This document shows positions 1,094 through 39,666 of a stretch of DNA of 60,856 bases, piece by piece. This DNA is from Bacteroidales bacterium (GTDB lineage Bacteria; Bacteroidota; Bacteroidia; Bacteroidales; UBA1715): positions 1-60,856 of the forward strand of contig JAFZOY010000013.1 of assembly GCA_017552705.1 (NCBI GenBank), written 5' to 3'. A program made the translations under genes and the position numbers. The stretch's first letter is position 1. Each line of letters opens with the position of its first letter. The notes below the pieces were generated by a model. It made no database searches, was not told the DNA's origin, and was given only the letters and a program-made list of their open reading frames with translations.

Positions 1094-2958
1094 AACACCA
1101 TCTTCGGCAATGTTATCTTCACAGGAACTTTTTTCCCTTCAATCTCGTATGGAGTAATGTTTGGCAAAGTTTTGAATGCGTTACCGATTGCCTGTAATTC
1201 TTCTGTCATTGTAGCAATATAAAAATCCTTATAGCCCGAAGCAAAATTTAATTTAAACCTTGTTATTTCATCGCCAATAAAGTTGCTTCGTTCAACATAA
1301 ACAATTTTTCCTTCTTCGTTTATAATAACATTCAGCGTTACGGATTTTCCCATCAACGACTGCGGTTTGTTAATCTTTCCACGCACGTTGTCAATCATTG
1401 TCATATATTCTTTCTCTCGTTGATTGTCAATTATATTCATATCGAATATTTTTTTTGAAAAATCGAACGCTCCGATTTGTACGCCTTGTGAAAAAATGAA
1501 TATAGAATCTTTCGTATTGACAGGCTCGTCTTTATAAGGAGATTTTGCAGGGGTGTATTTTATGTTTTTTACTGCTTCTATGACTTCGCTTGCCGAAGAA
1601 CTACAGACATCCGTAGTATCAGTATCTATTGAAATATTATACACGTTTCCTTTTTTGGAGACTAAATACTTTATGAGAAAAAGTTTGTTCCATACGCTGT
1701 CATAGACAGGAGTAGTCGGCAAGACACAAATTTGGAACACTGATTCGGAAACAACATTGTTCTCCTTTATTTTTGCACTATTTCTTCCTAAATTGTAATA
1801 AATTGTATCATAGAGGGTATTATAACACCAACCTAAGTTGTTATCTTTAAGACTTCTTGGAACTAATTCACGATATGGCCATTTCCGTTCCCCCCACTCA
1901 TCTTGAATCTCTTTTTTTGTATTTTCTTTATACTCTTTGAACTCATATTTTTCTGATGAGGATTGGTATGGTTTAAAGTCATCCTTATACGTCCGTAAAA
2001 ACTCTTGTTTAGACTTCCCGTTTATTGACGTAATCCTATACTTAAACGACGAGGTGGGCAGAAACAAAACGTGTGGTATGTAATAAAACTCAACAGGACT
2101 TTCCTTGTCTCCGTTACTTACTATATATTCATTCGTTCCTTTCCTGCGTATCACATATTTTGTGTCGTAGGTGACATTTTCACTCCATGGTAATCCATGT
2201 GGATACACCAAAGGTCTGTTCAATTCAGAGAGACCAATGGGAAGGACTTCCTTGCGACCATATAATAAATCACTTCCATAACCGAACAAAGAGTTTGAAA
2301 TCTGTCTTTGAATCAATGATTCATTGGGTATATGCTGTATTAAAAAAGAATAATCACATATATTTTTGTAGATGTTGAAATTATATTGTGCGTAGTTGTC
2401 GTCGCAAGACTTGCACCATCGGAATATCCGCATCCAATAATATTTATAGAGTTGAACGGTTTCACCTTTGCGTATTCCTAAATATTCGTAAGAAAACAAA
2501 TAATCAACCCAACTGCTTTCGTACATGGCTGGACTACGTGTTTCATCCACAACGTCTATAACATCAGTATCTTCCCAATCTCCTACATCCATATTGCGCC
2601 AATGAAAAGCGAGATAATATATGTCCTTTGTCTCCCCATATTTAGGTAAGTCACTAATAGGAATCGTTTTATACGGCTTTACTAAAATAGATATTGCAAA
2701 TTCGGCGTGCCACAGAAACAACACGGTGTACCTGCAACTTACTTTTTGAGGCGTATGGATAGTTGGAGCAAGGTCCTTGTATAAATATGTTTCAAAATTT
2801 GGAAATACTTTCGCTATCGAAACGGTAGTATCAACCGCTAACTGAACTGTGTACAATTTGTCATATTCATCAACCATCAAAACTCCACTTCTTTGCCTGT
2901 GTGCAAGAGACGTAAGAGCAAGGTTTAATAATAATATGAAAAGAATGAGTTTTTTCAT
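1090..2958 (-). CDS. Secreted protein of unknown function with TonB C-terminal-like end
   Basis: A 622-residue protein with an N-terminal signal peptide (MKKLILFILLLNLALTSLA), so probably periplasmic or surface exposed. Most of the chain is unrecognised and rich in Tyr, Lys and Asp. The last ~80 residues resemble the TonB C-terminal fold used by many Bacteroidetes secreted proteins: a strand pattern VTLNVIINEEGKIVYVE, a helix, then a closing KKVPVKITLPKMVF. No transmembrane anchor or proline-rich TonB stalk is seen, so this is not a working TonB. Its base composition is more AT-rich than aroA. It is the first gene of the block bounded by the aroA 3' duplication and ends convergently with aroA, with a 4-base overlap. 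Confidence 0.75.
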   Translation of the reverse strand: MKKLILFILLLNLALTSLAHRQRSGVLMVDEYDKLYTVQLAVDTTVSIAKVFPNFETYLYKDLAPTIHTPQKVSCRYTVLFLWHAEFAISILVKPYKTIPISDLPKYGETKDIYYLAFHWRNMDVGDWEDTDVIDVVDETRSPAMYESSWVDYLFSYEYLGIRKGETVQLYKYYWMRIFRWCKSCDDNYAQYNFNIYKNICDYSFLIQHIPNESLIQRQISNSLFGYGSDLLYGRKEVLPIGLSELNRPLVYPHGLPWSENVTYDTKYVIRRKGTNEYIVSNGDKESPVEFYYIPHVLFLPTSSFKYRITSINGKSKQEFLRTYKDDFKPYQSSSEKYEFKEYKENTKKEIQDEWGERKWPYRELVPRSLKDNNLGWCYNTLYDTIYYNLGRNSAKIKENNVVSESVFQICVLPTTPVYDSVWNKLFLIKYLVSKKGNVYNISIDTDTTDVCSSSASEVIEAVKNIKYTPAKSPYKDEPVNTKDSIFIFSQGVQIGAFDFSKKIFDMNIIDNQREKEYMTMIDNVRGKINKPQSLMGKSVTLNVIINEEGKIVYVERSNFIGDEITRFKLNFASGYKDFYIATMTEELQAIGNAFKTLPNITPYEIEGKKVPVKITLPKMVF

Positions 2959-3079
2959 AAGACGAAATTACTCATATTTTCCAAAATCGGCAAATAATTT
3001 ATTGTTTGTATATCCTGTCTTCCAAGTCGTTTAGCCAAAATCTCTCCATTTTCCAAGAGAAAAAGTAATATGAAAATTC

Positions 3080-3110
3080 TTGACAACCGAAATAGATTGT
3101 TGTATATTTG
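3080..3110 (+). promoter_or_regulatory. Strong promoter for small RNA A
   Basis: TTGACA with its TTG at 3080-3082, a 20-nt spacer and TATATTTG at 3103-3110 match the Bacteroidetes primary sigma consensus (TTG, 18-21 nt, TAnnTTTG) perfectly. The predicted start is G3115. The same TTGACA/TATATTTGC architecture precedes RNA B (35597-35627) and RNA C (40737-40757). Confidence 0.8.
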
Positions 3111-3114
3111 CAAC

Positions 3115-3235
3115 GTCCTAGGTGAAAAATGAAGACGAAAGTTTAGAAACACGTGGGCAGAAGCCGTTAAGTCGGAAGAACTTTTAGCTACGGCGGGAAA
3201 GTTCAAAAAAGAGAATCAAACGAGTCTCTTTTTTT
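3115..3235 (+). ncRNA. Structured small RNA A, convergent with nuclease gene A
   Basis: A ~120-nt transcript bounded by a consensus promoter and an intrinsic terminator, with no convincing ORF. It is homologous to RNA B at 35468-35592 on the minus strand. Comparison gives three helices: P1 3115-3118 with 3155-3158 (GUCC/GGGC; B has GUUC/GAGC); P2 3133-3136 with 3141-3144, closed by the GNRA loop GAAA (B has GGAA); P3 3178-3185 with 3197-3204 (GAACUUUU/GAAAGUUC; B has GAGUUUUC/GAAAACUC). The P3 loop keeps GCUACGGC, whose ACGGC (3190-3194) can pair with upstream GCCGU (3163-3167) to give a pseudoknot. The compensatory changes indicate selection on RNA structure. I do not recognise a known RNA family. 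Confidence 0.7.
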
Positions 3236-3236
3236 T
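3205..3236. terminator. Bidirectional intrinsic terminator between RNA A and nuclease A
   Basis: A perfect 10-bp stem, AAAAAAGAGA (3205-3214) with TCTCTTTTTT (3225-3234), has a 10-nt loop and a T tract on both strands. It abuts the stop codon of the convergent nuclease gene, so it can serve both transcripts. Confidence 0.8.
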
Positions 3237-3918
3237 ATTTCTTTCGGCTAAACTCTTTGAACATTTTTGTAGAAAAATCTTTTGAATAAACTAAATATCG
3301 GTCTATTTCAATAAGAAATGTACCTTTAAAGAAAAAAATTATTCTTAACTCGGGGTTTTCAAAAAATGCAGTTTTAATATTCTCGGCAAGCTGTTTTATT
3401 TTAGGAGCACCCGTGAGGTTAATTGCAATTCTGTCAGCTTGTGTAGCCCCTTTTTCAAATCGATGTTCTATAGAACTCCCTCCCGTTGATGTCTTCCCTT
3501 CAACATAATATAAGCAATTTCGCTTGCGAATAATGAAATCGGCACTTTTGGTTGCTTTGGGGTTCGAGAGCAAAAACACATCATATCCGTTTGCCACAAA
3601 TTTCTGTGCTATTTGCAGATTGTTTGGTACTTCGCCCGTTTTCAATATTTCGTCATATTGATTTGTGTATAAGGTGTAAATCTTGTTTCCTGCCGTAGAA
3701 AATCGTTGTAATTCTGTAAATCCAGGCTGTGCAATAATCCATTTCAAAACTTCAACCTTTTCACGATTTGTTGAAAATGCGTAATAATCCTTCAGGGCAT
3801 TAGCAATTGTAGTTCCTTGATAAACAATAGGTTTCCCATACTCGGTTGTGGGCTCACAAACGACACTACAAATATCCTCCGTCCGCAATGGGTACGGTGT
3901 TGCTTTTTCTTTTTTCAT
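3235..3918 (-). CDS. CdiA-CT-like / PD-(D/E)XK-like nuclease domain protein, copy A
   Basis: 227 residues with no signal peptide or membrane segment, so probably cytosolic. The N-terminal ~100 residues (TPYPLRTEDIC start) belong to no family I know. The C-terminal half has a nuclease-like pattern: SADF with D127, then E140-G-K142 in YYVEGKTS, then KGATQADRIAINL with Q160 and R163. This order resembles CdiA C-terminal tRNA nuclease and MuF-associated toxin domains and fits a PD-(D/E)XK active site. An equally long paralogue lies at 34786-35469, with the shared stretches RKRNCLYYVEGKTSTGG and KPIVYQGTTI. The promoter -7 box lies a few bases before the ATG. The 3' end faces small RNA A across a shared terminator. 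Activity is inferred only. Confidence 0.7.
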   Translation of the reverse strand: MKKEKATPYPLRTEDICSVVCEPTTEYGKPIVYQGTTIANALKDYYAFSTNREKVEVLKWIIAQPGFTELQRFSTAGNKIYTLYTNQYDEILKTGEVPNNLQIAQKFVANGYDVFLLSNPKATKSADFIIRKRNCLYYVEGKTSTGGSSIEHRFEKGATQADRIAINLTGAPKIKQLAENIKTAFFENPELRIIFFFKGTFLIEIDRYLVYSKDFSTKMFKEFSRKK

Positions 3919-34785: not shown

Positions 34786-35469
34786 ATGAATGAAGAAACA
34801 GCAACACCGTACCCACTGAGGACGGAAGATATTTGTGATGTCGTTTGTGAACCTACATCCGACTATGAGAAACCTATTGTATATCAAGGAACTACGATCA
34901 ACAAAGCCATAGCAGACTATTATACTTGTAATACAAACAAAGATAGAGTCACCATTTTACAATGGATAGTAGAACGCACGGAATTTCAGGAATTACGACG
35001 TTTCTCCACGAATGAAAATGCCGTATATGGATTGAACATCAGTCAATACGATGACATTCTTCTTTCTGGAGAAATGCCGAATAATCTTGCAATAGCCCAA
35101 AAACTTGTGACGAACAAATTTGACGTATTCTTGCTTTCAAATCCAAATTCCACCAAAAGTGCGGATTTTATTCTAAGAAAACGAAACTGCTTATATTATG
35201 TAGAAGGAAAAACCTCCACTGGTGGTAGTGCACTCGTTCATCAATTGGGAAAAGGAGCGAAACAGGCTAACAGAATTGTCATTGACTTTATTGCATTACC
35301 CAAGACAAGAGACATAACCCAATTAATACAAAGTACGTTTAACAACCATATAAATCTTGTGGAACTAATGCTATTCAAAGGGAAATCTTTGATATCCATT
35401 AAACGAAAAGACTATACAGCAAAAGATTTTGCAAAAAGATTCAAGCAATTATGGTATAAAACAAAATAA
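34786..35469 (+). CDS. CdiA-CT-like / PD-(D/E)XK-like nuclease domain protein, copy B
   Basis: 227 residues, a co-linear paralogue of the protein at 3235-3918 with about half of its residues identical and no length change. Conserved blocks are ATPYPLRTEDIC.VVCEPT, KPIVYQGTTI, NNL.IAQK, DVFLLSNP..TKSADFI.RKRNC, LYYVEGKTSTGGS and KGA.QA.RI. Divergence concentrates in the region 45-90 and the last 50 residues. The putative active-site D...ExK (SADF, VEGK) is kept. One Asp of the A copy's QADRI becomes Asn here (QANRI). It ends tail to tail with RNA B across a shared terminator, as copy A does with RNA A. No classical immunity gene is beside it. Confidence 0.7.
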   Translation: MNEETATPYPLRTEDICDVVCEPTSDYEKPIVYQGTTINKAIADYYTCNTNKDRVTILQWIVERTEFQELRRFSTNENAVYGLNISQYDDILLSGEMPNNLAIAQKLVTNKFDVFLLSNPNSTKSADFILRKRNCLYYVEGKTSTGGSALVHQLGKGAKQANRIVIDFIALPKTRDITQLIQSTFNNHINLVELMLFKGKSLISIKRKDYTAKDFAKRFKQLWYKTK

Positions 35470-35495
35470 AAAAGGGATTTCACAACCCCTTTTTT
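35468..35495. terminator. Bidirectional terminator between nuclease B and RNA B
   Basis: AAAAAAGGG (35468-35476) with CCCTTTTTT (35487-35495); T tracts on both strands. Its sequence differs from the terminator at locus A but it occupies the same place, starting inside the nuclease stop codon. Confidence 0.8.
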
Positions 35496-35592
35496 AATGA
35501 GTTTTCTTGCCGTAGCCGAAAACTCGCACGAACTTAATCGGCACTTGCTCGAATGGTTCAGGGCTTCCGCCTTTATGTTGATACATAAGAAC
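35468..35592 (-). ncRNA. Structured small RNA B, convergent with nuclease gene B
   Basis: A ~125-nt minus-strand transcript homologous to RNA A. Helices (plus coordinates): P1 35592-35589 with 35550-35547 (GUUC/GAGC); P2 35572-35569 with 35564-35561 around the GNRA loop GGAA (AGGC/GCCC, first pair open); P3 35525-35518 with 35506-35499 (GAGUUUUC/GAAAACUC). The P3 loop GGCUACGGCAA carries CGGC (35512-35509), which can pair with GCCG (35542-35539). Compared with RNA A, two P3 pairs and one pair each in P1 and P2 changed on both sides. A 30-codon ORF (35586-35494) exists but has no intact counterpart in RNA A. Function unknown. Confidence 0.7.
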
Positions 35593-35596
35593 GTGG

Positions 35597-35627
35597 CAAA
35601 TATACAACTTCCTTTCTCGTTTGTCAA
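35597..35627 (-). promoter_or_regulatory. Strong promoter for small RNA B
   Basis: On the minus strand TTGACA (TTG at plus 35625-35627), 20 nt, TATATTTG (plus 35597-35604). Predicted start G35592, five bases after the -7 box as in RNA A. Confidence 0.8.
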
Positions 35628-35694: not shown

Positions 35695-38600
35695 CTAATT
35701 TGCATTTTTTACAAGGCGGACAGATCGCCCCATGTAGCGATTGTAGGAGCTCGTGCCCACTTTGCTTTTGAAAGTCAGATAGCTGCAAGCCGTACTCGAC
35801 CAGTAGAGGCCGTAGGAACCCACACTGACCACGTCTGTCCCTTCGCGGTGGCCGGCAGCAGGAAGAAACACGGCACCGTGGGCTTCCATCTTTGCCCAAT
35901 CAGCAGTTGAATATGTGTTCTGTGCGAAATTGCCGTCTCCACTTATGAATGTTAAACCGTTTGGCAATGTCCAGTTGTTGGGCAACAATATAAGGCCAGT
36001 AACGTCGTTAACGGTCGCAAAGCCTTTCTTGCTTGAAGCATCGGTTCTTGTATTTATGAGAAACTCCCATTCGTCTTTTGTAAGCGTCCGCCACTGTCCC
36101 GCTTGGTTGCCTCCGTTGGAAATGGCGTTGTACACGCCCCAATCATAGTTCGTGCCTGCTATATCATTGTTGCCATCACCATAATCGGAATAATCCGTGC
36201 TTGTCATATACGGATTTTTGCCATTGTAACCACTGGTTCCCCAACCGAATAGGTCTATCCAACCGCTATACGAACTTGAGATGTTGGAATTGTCGCTACC
36301 AATAATATCATATTGGTGTCCGGCAAAACGCCATGTACTTGTGCTTGCTTGGTATTGCAGGTTGCCTTGAGAGAAAAGTACTTTTTTATTATAACCAACA
36401 GAAAAAACAGCACCTATTATAGCACCTGTTGCCGGCGGTGTTGTCACAACTATTTGTTCACTGTACCCTGTTCCAAAAGAGTTTACGGCATACGCACGAA
36501 CATAGTAAGTCGTTTCTGGTGCAAGTTCATCAATCGTCATTTCAAAATCATCGCCTTCAACGGCTTTTTTAGTACTTTCTACCGTTGGATTTTCGGTTGT
36601 CGCGTAGCAAAACCCTTTTTCAGTAATTTCCAGACCGCCGTTTGAAGTAATTTCAGACGAAACTGTGAACGAAGTTTCTCTAATATAGGAACTTGTAATA
36701 TCCGCAATTGTTGCAGCCATAACCAATGTAGTTATTGAAGTTTGTTCGCTGTACGCTGTTCCAACAGAGTTCACGGCATACGCACGAACATAGTAAGTTG
36801 TTCCTGGTGCAAGTTCGTCAATTGTAGCTTCAAACTCATCGCCTTCAACGGCCTTTTTAGAATCTTCAACCGTTGGATCTTCGGCTGTAGAGTAGCAGAA
36901 GCCTTTTTCGGTAACTTCCGTACCGCCGTTATTGGTGATTTCAGATGAAACCTTGAATGAAACGGCTGTGAATTCGGAACTTGTTACATCAGCAACCGTT
37001 GCAAGAGTAATAGCAGTGGTTGTAACCGTTATCTGGTCGCTATACGAAGTTCCTGCGGAGTTCGTAACGTATGCACGAACGTAGTAGGTGGTAACTGGAG
37101 AAAGTCCTGTTATTTCGGCACTTAAATTTTCTCCTGAAACCACAACTTTAAAACAGTCAATCGTAGGATTTTCGGTTGTAGAGTAGCAGAAACCTTTAGA
37201 AGACACGCCGCCGCCATCGTCAGTAATTGCGGCAGTCACCTTGAACGACTTGCCTGCCACTTCGGTGGCTGTTGGAGTTCCCACCGTTGCAGGAAGGCAC
37301 AATGTAGTTACAGTATATGTACTGCTATATGTCGTACCTTTTGAATTTGTCGCAAATGCACGAACGTAGTAGGTTTTTCCCGGTTGCAAACCGCTTTTGG
37401 TTGCCTCAAAGTCTGTACCCTCCACATCAACCGTTACTTTGTCGTTAGAAGTGGTAGGTGTTTCTGTTGTACTTGAATAGCAGAATCCCCATTGGGTAAT
37501 CTGCGCCTCGAACCGCACGCTTGCTTGCATTTTAAACGATTCAGCGGTAACGTCGCTATAACTGCTGGAGTAAATCATAGGAGCCATAAGCGTGGTGTTG
37601 ACAACAAGCGGCTCGCTGTAGCCTGTGCCAGTGGTGCTGGTTGCGTAGGCACGGATGTAGTATGTGTAGCCCGAAGCCAACCCATACCAACCGCCGGTAT
37701 AATTTTCGTCAACAGCCGTACCCGTAGCAACATATTTCTTTTCGTTGTCAGCCACCGTAGGGTTTGGTGTTCTTGAGCAGACAAACCCACGTTCGATTAT
37801 GTCGCCAAAACCAGCCGAAGTAATTTTTGCATAAATAGTCACCTCCACGTCTTCCATTCCAGAAAGCGTAGGTTTTGAAAGTTTCGGGTTCTTAGAAGCA
37901 TCAACCCAATCACTCAAAGCGGCAAACCGTTCGTTCATTTCAGCCAACAAGGCATCAACTTCGGCTTTCGAGTAGTAGCCGTCCAAATTTGTAGTGCCAA
38001 TTTGGCTTTTCAGCACGTATGCGTCGAGGGTGTCGTTCATTTTGGCTGTGGTAGGATAAACAGAAAGCGTATCCTTCATTTTTGCAGTAGTTGCGTAGCC
38101 AGTCAAATCAGTTGCAGGAACATCGCTCAATGTAATGTAGTTTGCATCGTTGGCAAGGTCGCTCACTTTGGTTGGAACGGTTGGAATCTCTATAGCAGCA
38201 ACTTTCTCATTTACATACGTTTCGCTCGCCAAACCTTCCACGCTTGGAATGTTCAACGCGTTCAACTCTTCTTTTGTCGCATAGGCACTCAAATCTTGTG
38301 CGGCAGGAATTTTGCCTTCCAATTCGGCAAGAGCAGCAGTCACATCAGATGATTTTGCATACACGCTCAAATCAACAGCGTCAGCTTGTCCGCCAGAAAG
38401 CACGTAGGTTTCAAATTCATCCTTTGTTACATACGTTGCCGAAACGTCGGCTGATTTTGCGTAGTCCGTTAAATCAGTGGCAGGCACATCGCTCAACGTG
38501 ATGTAGTTTGCGTCGTTTTCAAAATCGCTCACCTTGGTTGGAACCGACGGAATCTGTATAGCCGCAACTTGCTCATTTACATACGTTTCGCTTGCCAAAC

Positions 38601-39666
38601 CTTCCACGCTTGGAATGTTCAACGCGTTTAATTCCTCTTTTGTCGCATAGCCCGTCAAATCTTGTGCAGGAACATCGCTCAACGTGATGTAGTTTGCATC
38701 GTTGTCAAGGTCGCTCACTTTGGTTGGAACGGTTTCAGATTTTGCATAAACCGACAACGTGTCATTTAATTTTGCTGAAGTCGCAAAGCCGCTCAAATCC
38801 TGTTCGGCGGGGATTTTCCCTTCCAGTTCGGCAAGAGCCGCATTCACGTCGGATGATTTCGCATACACGCTCAAATCAACCGCGTCGGCTTGTCCGCCCG
38901 AAAGCACATAGTTTTCAAATTCCTCTTTTGTGACATAATTTCCCGAAACCTCGGTTGATTTTGCGTACACGTTCAAAGTGTCGTTCATTTTTGCCGTTGT
39001 AGCAAAGCCGTCCAAGTCCGATTTCTTTGCATAGTCGCTCAGGTCAACCTCAGTTGGAAGTTCGTCCTTTTTAGCGTAGGTCTGTTCCACGTCGGCGGTC
39101 TTGGCGTAATCCTCAAGAGTTGCGGGCATTTCCGCCTTTTTCACGTAGGTGTTGTCAACGTCGGCTGACTTTGCGTAGTCGTTCAACTCCTCTGTTTTCA
39201 CATAACCGTCGAGGTTCGCGCCTTCGGGGATGTCCGATTTCTTGGCATAATCCGTCAAATCGGGCACGTTGCCAGCTTTTTCGGCAAACTTCGCATAAGG
39301 AACCGTAAGCATTGGCGTTACGCCTGTAACGGTTTTGCCGTCGATTTCGGCAACAGTCTTCACGAAATACGGACCCGCGCTCCAGTCAATCTGCGAGAAC
39401 GCCGTTTCGGAGATTTGTTCTCCGTTTCCCAACTCCAACGAAACCAAACCGTTGGCATTGGTGGTTGCGTCGTGTTTTTCAGCATACACCACGTCGCCCT
39501 CGTCGGAACCTTGGAGAATGCTCAATTCAATACTTACAGCCTTTGAAACCACAAGGGCGTTGTCGGCATCGCGCACTACGCCTTGGTAGCTCATTGTCTG
39601 CGGAACTTGTGCGAACGTCAGGAACGCCAGAATCGCCATTGCTACTGTTAAGATAATTTTCTTCAT
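35695..39666 (-). CDS. Giant secreted surface protein: tail-fibre-like repeats, Fn3-like repeats, C-terminal lectin/FISUMP-like domain
   Basis: 1323 residues. The signal peptide ends ILAFLTFAQ. Residues ~20-135 are the Bacteroidetes domain starting VPQTMSYQGVVRDADNALV and ending LTVPYAKFAEKA, typical of proteins with phage-tail-like stalks. Residues ~135-590 are tail-fibre-like repeats (YAKKSDL, VSDLDNDANYITLSDVPA, YATKEELNALNIPSVEGL). Residues ~590-1080 hold about five Fn3-like repeats with KGFCYSTTENPT and TTYYVRAYAVNSVGT. The last ~230 residues are the domain shared with the proteins at 6600 and 57885. No T9SS sorting signal is present. Its 68-nt gap to the upstream T9SS cargo gene suggests one operon. 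The role is probably adhesion or surface display. Confidence 0.8.
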   Translation of the reverse strand: MKKIILTVAMAILAFLTFAQVPQTMSYQGVVRDADNALVVSKAVSIELSILQGSDEGDVVYAEKHDATTNANGLVSLELGNGEQISETAFSQIDWSAGPYFVKTVAEIDGKTVTGVTPMLTVPYAKFAEKAGNVPDLTDYAKKSDIPEGANLDGYVKTEELNDYAKSADVDNTYVKKAEMPATLEDYAKTADVEQTYAKKDELPTEVDLSDYAKKSDLDGFATTAKMNDTLNVYAKSTEVSGNYVTKEEFENYVLSGGQADAVDLSVYAKSSDVNAALAELEGKIPAEQDLSGFATSAKLNDTLSVYAKSETVPTKVSDLDNDANYITLSDVPAQDLTGYATKEELNALNIPSVEGLASETYVNEQVAAIQIPSVPTKVSDFENDANYITLSDVPATDLTDYAKSADVSATYVTKDEFETYVLSGGQADAVDLSVYAKSSDVTAALAELEGKIPAAQDLSAYATKEELNALNIPSVEGLASETYVNEKVAAIEIPTVPTKVSDLANDANYITLSDVPATDLTGYATTAKMKDTLSVYPTTAKMNDTLDAYVLKSQIGTTNLDGYYSKAEVDALLAEMNERFAALSDWVDASKNPKLSKPTLSGMEDVEVTIYAKITSAGFGDIIERGFVCSRTPNPTVADNEKKYVATGTAVDENYTGGWYGLASGYTYYIRAYATSTTGTGYSEPLVVNTTLMAPMIYSSSYSDVTAESFKMQASVRFEAQITQWGFCYSSTTETPTTSNDKVTVDVEGTDFEATKSGLQPGKTYYVRAFATNSKGTTYSSTYTVTTLCLPATVGTPTATEVAGKSFKVTAAITDDGGGVSSKGFCYSTTENPTIDCFKVVVSGENLSAEITGLSPVTTYYVRAYVTNSAGTSYSDQITVTTTAITLATVADVTSSEFTAVSFKVSSEITNNGGTEVTEKGFCYSTAEDPTVEDSKKAVEGDEFEATIDELAPGTTYYVRAYAVNSVGTAYSEQTSITTLVMAATIADITSSYIRETSFTVSSEITSNGGLEITEKGFCYATTENPTVESTKKAVEGDDFEMTIDELAPETTYYVRAYAVNSFGTGYSEQIVVTTPPATGAIIGAVFSVGYNKKVLFSQGNLQYQASTSTWRFAGHQYDIIGSDNSNISSSYSGWIDLFGWGTSGYNGKNPYMTSTDYSDYGDGNNDIAGTNYDWGVYNAISNGGNQAGQWRTLTKDEWEFLINTRTDASSKKGFATVNDVTGLILLPNNWTLPNGLTFISGDGNFAQNTYSTADWAKMEAHGAVFLPAAGHREGTDVVSVGSYGLYWSSTACSYLTFKSKVGTSSYNRYMGRSVRLVKNAN
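37930..39260 (-). repeat. Mosaic internal repeats of the surface protein gene
   Basis: Near-identical DNA blocks recur, for example the EELNALNIPSVEGLASETYVNE block at ~38220-38283 and ~38585-38649, and the SGGQADAVDLSVYAKSSDV block at ~38350-38410 and ~38850-38915. The offsets differ (366 and ~500), so units were shuffled or duplicated more than once. Such DNA can change length by slippage or recombination. Confidence 0.75.

Follow-up and report, generated by a model that had tools for sequence, protein, structure and literature searches.

The window analysed here, a 60,856-nucleotide stretch of contig JAFZOY010000013.1 (assembly GCA_017552705.1) from a Bacteroidales bacterium, carries two copies of a small cassette in which the gene for a predicted nuclease toxin and the gene for a structured RNA face each other. 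The two RNAs, A and B, each lie tail to tail with one of two paralogous toxin genes of approximately 227 codons, a partner overlooked in the initial annotation. Judging from patterns of sequence conservation, it is quite likely that the RNA is an antitoxin, inhibiting its cognate nuclease by binding to it, and that the pair thus acts in a type III-like manner, but with another gene layout, another protein fold and another RNA.

RNA A (3111-3236, forward strand) and RNA B (35467-35596, reverse strand, ~130 nt) can be aligned from end to end, as had been claimed for positions 3115-3235 and 35468-35592, and a covariance model places both of them there. The matches score 112 bits (E = 6e-20) for RNA A and 130 bits (E = 2e-23) for RNA B, with the qualification that both RNAs belong to the seed of the model, which was built from 25 copies from the genus of the window and one other genome. 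Searching seven genomes of one Bacteroidales genus, a small sample, with this model yielded further members: six of the genomes together hold 34 matches, ten of them in the window's own genome. None of 4,227 Rfam families matched the RNA at the gathering score, and nothing credible appeared at a lax threshold; a search of viral contigs likewise returned no member of the family. Both RNAs are preceded by Bacteroidota-type -33/-7 promoter boxes, which are conserved in most copies: TTGACA (3080-3085) and TATATTTG (3103-3110) for RNA A (promoter at 3080-3110, forward strand), and TTGACA (35627-35622) and TATATTTG (35604-35597) for RNA B (35597-35627, reverse strand), with a 17 nt spacer between the boxes in each case. 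Both also end in a terminator hairpin, and that of RNA B (35467-35495, reverse strand), an inverted repeat with a U run, is also at the 3' end of toxin gene B. The predicted transcript of the family is approximately 125 nt long, and both sequence and alignment indicate that the window RNA is single-copy, with no tandem or internal repeat units. Three additional sites (L021, L022 and L023, at G000:C87:2615-2675, C67:71191-71242 and C83:140-197, respectively) resemble the promoter region of RNA A, and no RNA was detected at them.

The helix P3 is 8 bp long in both RNAs, as initially described. In RNA A it occupies 3178-3204 (forward strand), with arms GAACUUUU/GAAAGUUC at 3178-3185/3197-3204 and a YNMG cap, and in RNA B, where it is the putative specificity element, it occupies 35499-35525 (reverse strand), with arms GAGUUUUC/GAAAACUC at 35525-35518/35506-35499 and the cap GC-UACG-GC at 35516-35509. 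The 5' domain of RNA B (35547-35592, reverse strand) is closed by P1 (GUUC at 35592-35589 and GAGC at 35550-35547) and contains P2 with its GNRA loop (35571-35562). The differences reported between the two RNAs in these helices were borne out, both for the C-G to U-A exchange in P1 (GUCC/GGGC in A, GUUC/GAGC in B) and for the A-U to G-C change in P2 beneath GNRA loops (GAC-GAAA-GUU in A, GGC-GGAA-GCC in B). Across the copies P1 is kept, with GUCC/GGRC becoming GUUC/GARC and pair 7-48 changing from C-G to U-A in 11 of 25. P2 and P3 were predicted unprompted by RNAalifold from the 25 copies. Both sides change at all ten pairs of P3, and 88% of its cells pair; for P2 and P3 combined the proportion is 90%. 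None of 500 column shuffles, in which 70% pair, attains this value, and sliding of the 3' strand gives 29-52%. The covariation of P3 is strong and, on the comparative sequence evidence, decisive for this helix. Compensatory changes in P1, P2 and P3, together with the absence of an Rfam match, support the proposal that the window RNAs are members of a new structured RNA family.

The loop of P3 was previously suggested to form a pseudoknot with an upstream GCCG. This pairing is possible and fits most rows of the alignment, but covariation is present at only one of its four pairs, and the candidate (GCCG/CGGC) was rejected, as pairs 56-87 and 58-85 are lost in copies with a compensated cap or a variant loop. 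The cap GC-UACG-GC is swapped for AC/GU and GA/UC in other copies (closing pair 81-88 is GC in 18, AU in 6 and UG in 1; closing pair 82-87 is CG in 22 and AU in 2), and its tetraloops, UACG, CACG, UAAG and UAUG, are of the YNMG type. In the aligned copies, a covarying hairpin with a YNMG-type tetraloop appears to explain the loop better than a pseudoknot, and the GCCG strand fits better as an arm of a small hairpin with a conserved UUAAGU loop, CCG-UUAAGU-CGG or CGA-UUAAGU-UCG. The 5' half of the RNA occurs in at least four exchangeable forms, and P3 and the terminator vary independently.

Toxin gene B (34786-35469, forward strand) and toxin gene A (3235-3918, reverse strand) each encode a protein of 227 aa, and the two paralogues are 56% identical over the whole protein, differing most in the C-terminal third. 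Protein searches found twelve toxin copies or fragments in the genome of the window, between one and eight in each of five congeneric genomes, and two further copies in a Bacteroidales genome of another family; the named relatives are from Bacteroidales MAGs of yak, sheep and horse gut, and from UBA MAGs. Pfam CdiA_C (PF18451) matches 14 of 22 members (best E = 4e-5), although the window protein itself scores 19.9 bits, under the curated cut-off of 26.6. This weak match was the only one in a Pfam scan of the window protein, in which no type III toxin family, MuF or Abi_2 was found, and neither PADLOC nor NCBIfam gave a convincing family. D127, E140 and K142, the residues of a predicted D..ExK active site, are invariant in all 17 aligned toxins. 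When an AlphaFold2 model of the toxin (pLDDT 79) was compared using VIA-align, the best of 990 aligned chains was 4G6V, the CdiA-CT of Burkholderia pseudomallei 1026b, with a Z score of 6.0 (4.5 rmsd, 115 residues, 19% identity; unrelated rows at most 4.9), a value that can mean a shared arrangement only. A Foldseek search of the same model against the PDB returned nothing at E ≤ 0.001. Overall, the window toxins are probable CdiA_C / PD-(D/E)XK-type nucleases, with modest support from sequence. The CdiA-CT of B. pseudomallei 1026b is a Mg2+-dependent PD-(D/E)XK tRNase that cuts the acceptor stem of tRNA-Ala (PMC9086364), and because this is the closest of the chains compared, the window toxin is by analogy likely to be a tRNase.

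The association between RNA and toxin gene is invariant. In seven genomes, 25 intact toxin genes have a 3' flank that can be read, and the RNA lies tail to tail with every one of them, with no intact toxin lacking it among these loci, and in all units the RNA is convergent to the toxin gene and has its own promoter. The cassette measures approximately 0.9 kb from promoter to promoter, with both genes pointing inwards, and conservation spans the RNA promoter to the toxin promoter and then stops. The genome of the window has seven intact RNA/toxin pairs. The B cassette is adjoined by a gene (35695-39666) for a secreted protein of 1323 aa with many YAKSxDV/YVTKxEFE repeats.

Several observations suggest which partner restrains the other. 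At six loci (G000:C46, G002:C91, two in G003:C25, G004:C12 and G002:C55), an intact RNA lies beside a frameshifted or mostly deleted toxin, and at two further loci both RNA and toxin are decaying. Additionally, across 19 units, several of which are related, the similarity of P3 follows that of the last 72 toxin residues (Mantel r 0.46, p 1e-4), and it does so after the N-terminal signal is removed (partial Mantel r 0.44, p 1e-4), compared to a partial r of -0.02 for the first 150 residues. The terminator lies nearer to the toxin gene and yet tracks its C-terminus less well (0.27); therefore, physical linkage alone is not the explanation. Finally, both boxes are present in the RNA promoter, whereas in the toxin promoter only a -7 box is clear, immediately upstream of the ATG, and a stronger RNA promoter fits an excess of RNA over toxin. 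The outliving of toxin by RNA, the matching of P3 to the C-terminus and the relative strength of the promoters together indicate that the RNA is probably the antitoxin.

The cassette would accordingly be read as a two-gene toxin-antitoxin (or immunity) unit. One gene would encode the CdiA_C / PD-(D/E)XK nuclease, probably a tRNase, and the other a structured RNA of ~125 nt expressed from the stronger, consensus promoter. The RNA would bind its own toxin protein and so block it, and P3 may be read by the variable C-terminal third of the toxin, in which case the cassettes of one genome would be orthogonal. The toxin would act on loss of the RNA, for instance if transcription were shut off or in a cell without the RNA. 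Such a unit could serve in anti-phage suicide, in competition or in addiction. In this scheme we infer the toxicity, the tRNA target, the transcription of the RNA, its direct binding, the orthogonality and the trigger.

The protein profile also picked up two distant relatives, both of them tails of phage MuF proteins, with a convergent promoter just past the stop codon in each case. In a broader set of Bacteroidota phage MuF proteins from viral contigs and genomes, a convergent TAnnTTTG promoter is present 40-100 nt past the stop codon of all 22 proteins with CdiA_C-like tails and all six with PBECR tails (28/28), and of none of 37 MuF proteins that lack a tail or bear a peptidase, papain-like or other one; the background among other ORFs in MuF loci is 13 of 311. 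Small unclassified tails, which were left out of this comparison, have the promoter in five of six cases. The predicted RNAs would be 47-89 nt long and most fold into hairpins, but they have no RNA homology to the window family. At approximately ten of the loci concerned the next gene is a standard virion-morphogenesis gene, which leaves no room for an immunity ORF. These patterns suggest an identical RNA/nuclease arrangement in phages of this bacterial group. The open-licence literature yielded no account of MuF, PBECR or CdiA_C toxins countered by an immunity RNA.

Individual loci in this set show further features. In L064, the full MuF toxin gene is followed downstream by a C-terminal toxin remnant with its own copy of the RNA (1000-1200), an arrangement like the orphan toxin/immunity modules of other polymorphic toxins. 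The MuF frame of the same locus is apparently split by an intein-like (HINT) insertion at 2150-3200, where an ORF on the opposite strand may encode a homing endonuclease. L056 (1370-1480) and L062 (1980-2110) seemingly pair CdiA_C proteins of ~182 aa with a convergent RNA and promoter, and these RNAs apparently have P1 and P2 hairpins of other sequence. The L056 protein is 24% identical to the window protein, and a search for this relative in viral contigs and plasmids found none; similarly, the tail domain of L063 was not found in GenBank phages.

A wider set of PBECR loci has the convergent RNA in 34 of 35 cases, and a 7-nt loop, YUGYANN, is presented on a stem in 29 of these 34 RNAs (mean of 0.6 in shuffles; 1 of 27 other MuF RNAs), which are mutually related, such that the 29 are not independent events. 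Among the sampled tRNAs of this genome, only Tyr-GUA and Cys-GCA have such a loop. Convergent RNAs of 53-92 nt with a conserved anticodon-like loop UUGYANN on a stem lie 3' of the ORFs with PBECR tails at L163, L176, L179, L185, L191 and L279-L321. An RNase fold akin to that of colicin E5/D is predicted for PBECR (PMC5512222), and this relationship, together with the anticodon-like loop, favours the possibility that the RNA neutralises its toxin as a substrate decoy, by imitating the part of the tRNA that the toxin cuts. This decoy reading is somewhat less likely than not, and the RNAs of the window family have no clear tRNA mimicry. Two candidate forms of mimicry were considered and set aside: the arms of P3 match a tRNA acceptor stem no better than shuffled arms do (p 0.23), and CUACGG, a possible mimic in being identical to the first part of the anticodon loop of tRNA-Arg(ACG), has variants that fit a YNMG tetraloop better.

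The convergent layout, in which both transcripts stop in the same terminator region, would also suit a type I mechanism, with the RNA acting as antisense to the toxin mRNA or the RNA promoter interfering with toxin transcription. This is unlikely, since pairing with the cognate mRNA, whole or 5' part, has no consistent advantage over pairing with 15 others, and since P3 persists as a helix whose coupling to the toxin C-terminus antisense pairing would not predict. It is common for small RNAs to have a promoter and a terminator of their own, and the RNA could be an ordinary regulatory sRNA that travels with the gene by chance. However, the invariant pairing with the toxin, the coupling of P3 to the toxin C-terminus and the parallel layout in phage nuclease toxins render this quite improbable. 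Least probable is that the RNA guides the PD-(D/E)XK protein and that the cassette is a mobile element spreading by it, for despite the nuclease and RNA pair and the many scattered copies per genome, the RNA lacks a variable guide segment that is single-stranded (its variable part forms a base-paired helix), conservation stops at the promoters, and inspection by eye revealed no terminal repeats.

If blocking of the nuclease by its cognate RNA is the correct reading, RNA-antitoxin systems gain a new gene layout and new toxin folds, and the absence of an immunity gene beside nuclease-tailed phage MuF proteins is explained. The balance tips slightly towards a broader form of this reading, in which nuclease polymorphic toxins of Bacteroidota and their phages would generally be open to RNA immunity in place of immunity proteins, with convergent RNAs, some of them tRNA decoys such as the anticodon-loop mimic of the PBECR set, neutralising CdiA_C and PBECR toxins, and with orthogonal arrays within a cell. 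The cassettes would also offer ready-made pairs of RNA and protein that may be orthogonal, seven of them intact in the genome of the window. The coupling between P3 and the C-terminus makes specificity directly testable by swaps, and the anticodon-like loop of the phage PBECR RNAs suggests target tRNAs.

Among known systems, type III toxin-antitoxin loci (ToxIN, CptIN and TenpIN) have tandem RNA repeats upstream of the toxin gene, one promoter, and a terminator in between (PMC5086642). The window cassette is similar in combining a protein nuclease toxin (predicted here) with a small structured RNA and in the presumed direct inhibition of protein by RNA. In contrast, its genes are convergent with separate promoters, its RNA is a single unrepeated unit of ~125 nt, and its toxin is CdiA_C / PD-(D/E)XK-like, unlike ToxN, CptN or TenpN. 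Since the type III definition requires tandem upstream repeats on the same promoter, the cassette is not a member of that class. The nearest single-RNA case by analogy is AbiF with RCd22, which also occurs in phages and in which a single toxin is neutralised in cis and in trans by direct binding of a structured ncRNA (PMC12373285; Rfam RF03085). It differs in that the RNA is upstream on the same transcript and has repeated abiF motifs, and in that the protein is Abi_2/AbiF; no match to the Abi_2 Pfam or abiF Rfam models was found in the window. The CdiA-CT of 1026b (4G6V; PMC9086364) has a D..ExK-type active site like that predicted for the window toxin, whose modelled fold may be similar, but it is the tail of the secreted protein CdiA and is neutralised by the immunity protein CdiI, whereas the window toxin is a free protein of 227 aa accompanied by an RNA. 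Lastly, the MuF polymorphic toxins of temperate phages are described as having immunity proteins encoded by small downstream ORFs (PMC5576092, PMC11699363). The window protein, of 227 aa, has no MuF domain in the Pfam scan, but MuF proteins with nuclease tails share with the window cassettes the layout of a convergent short RNA.
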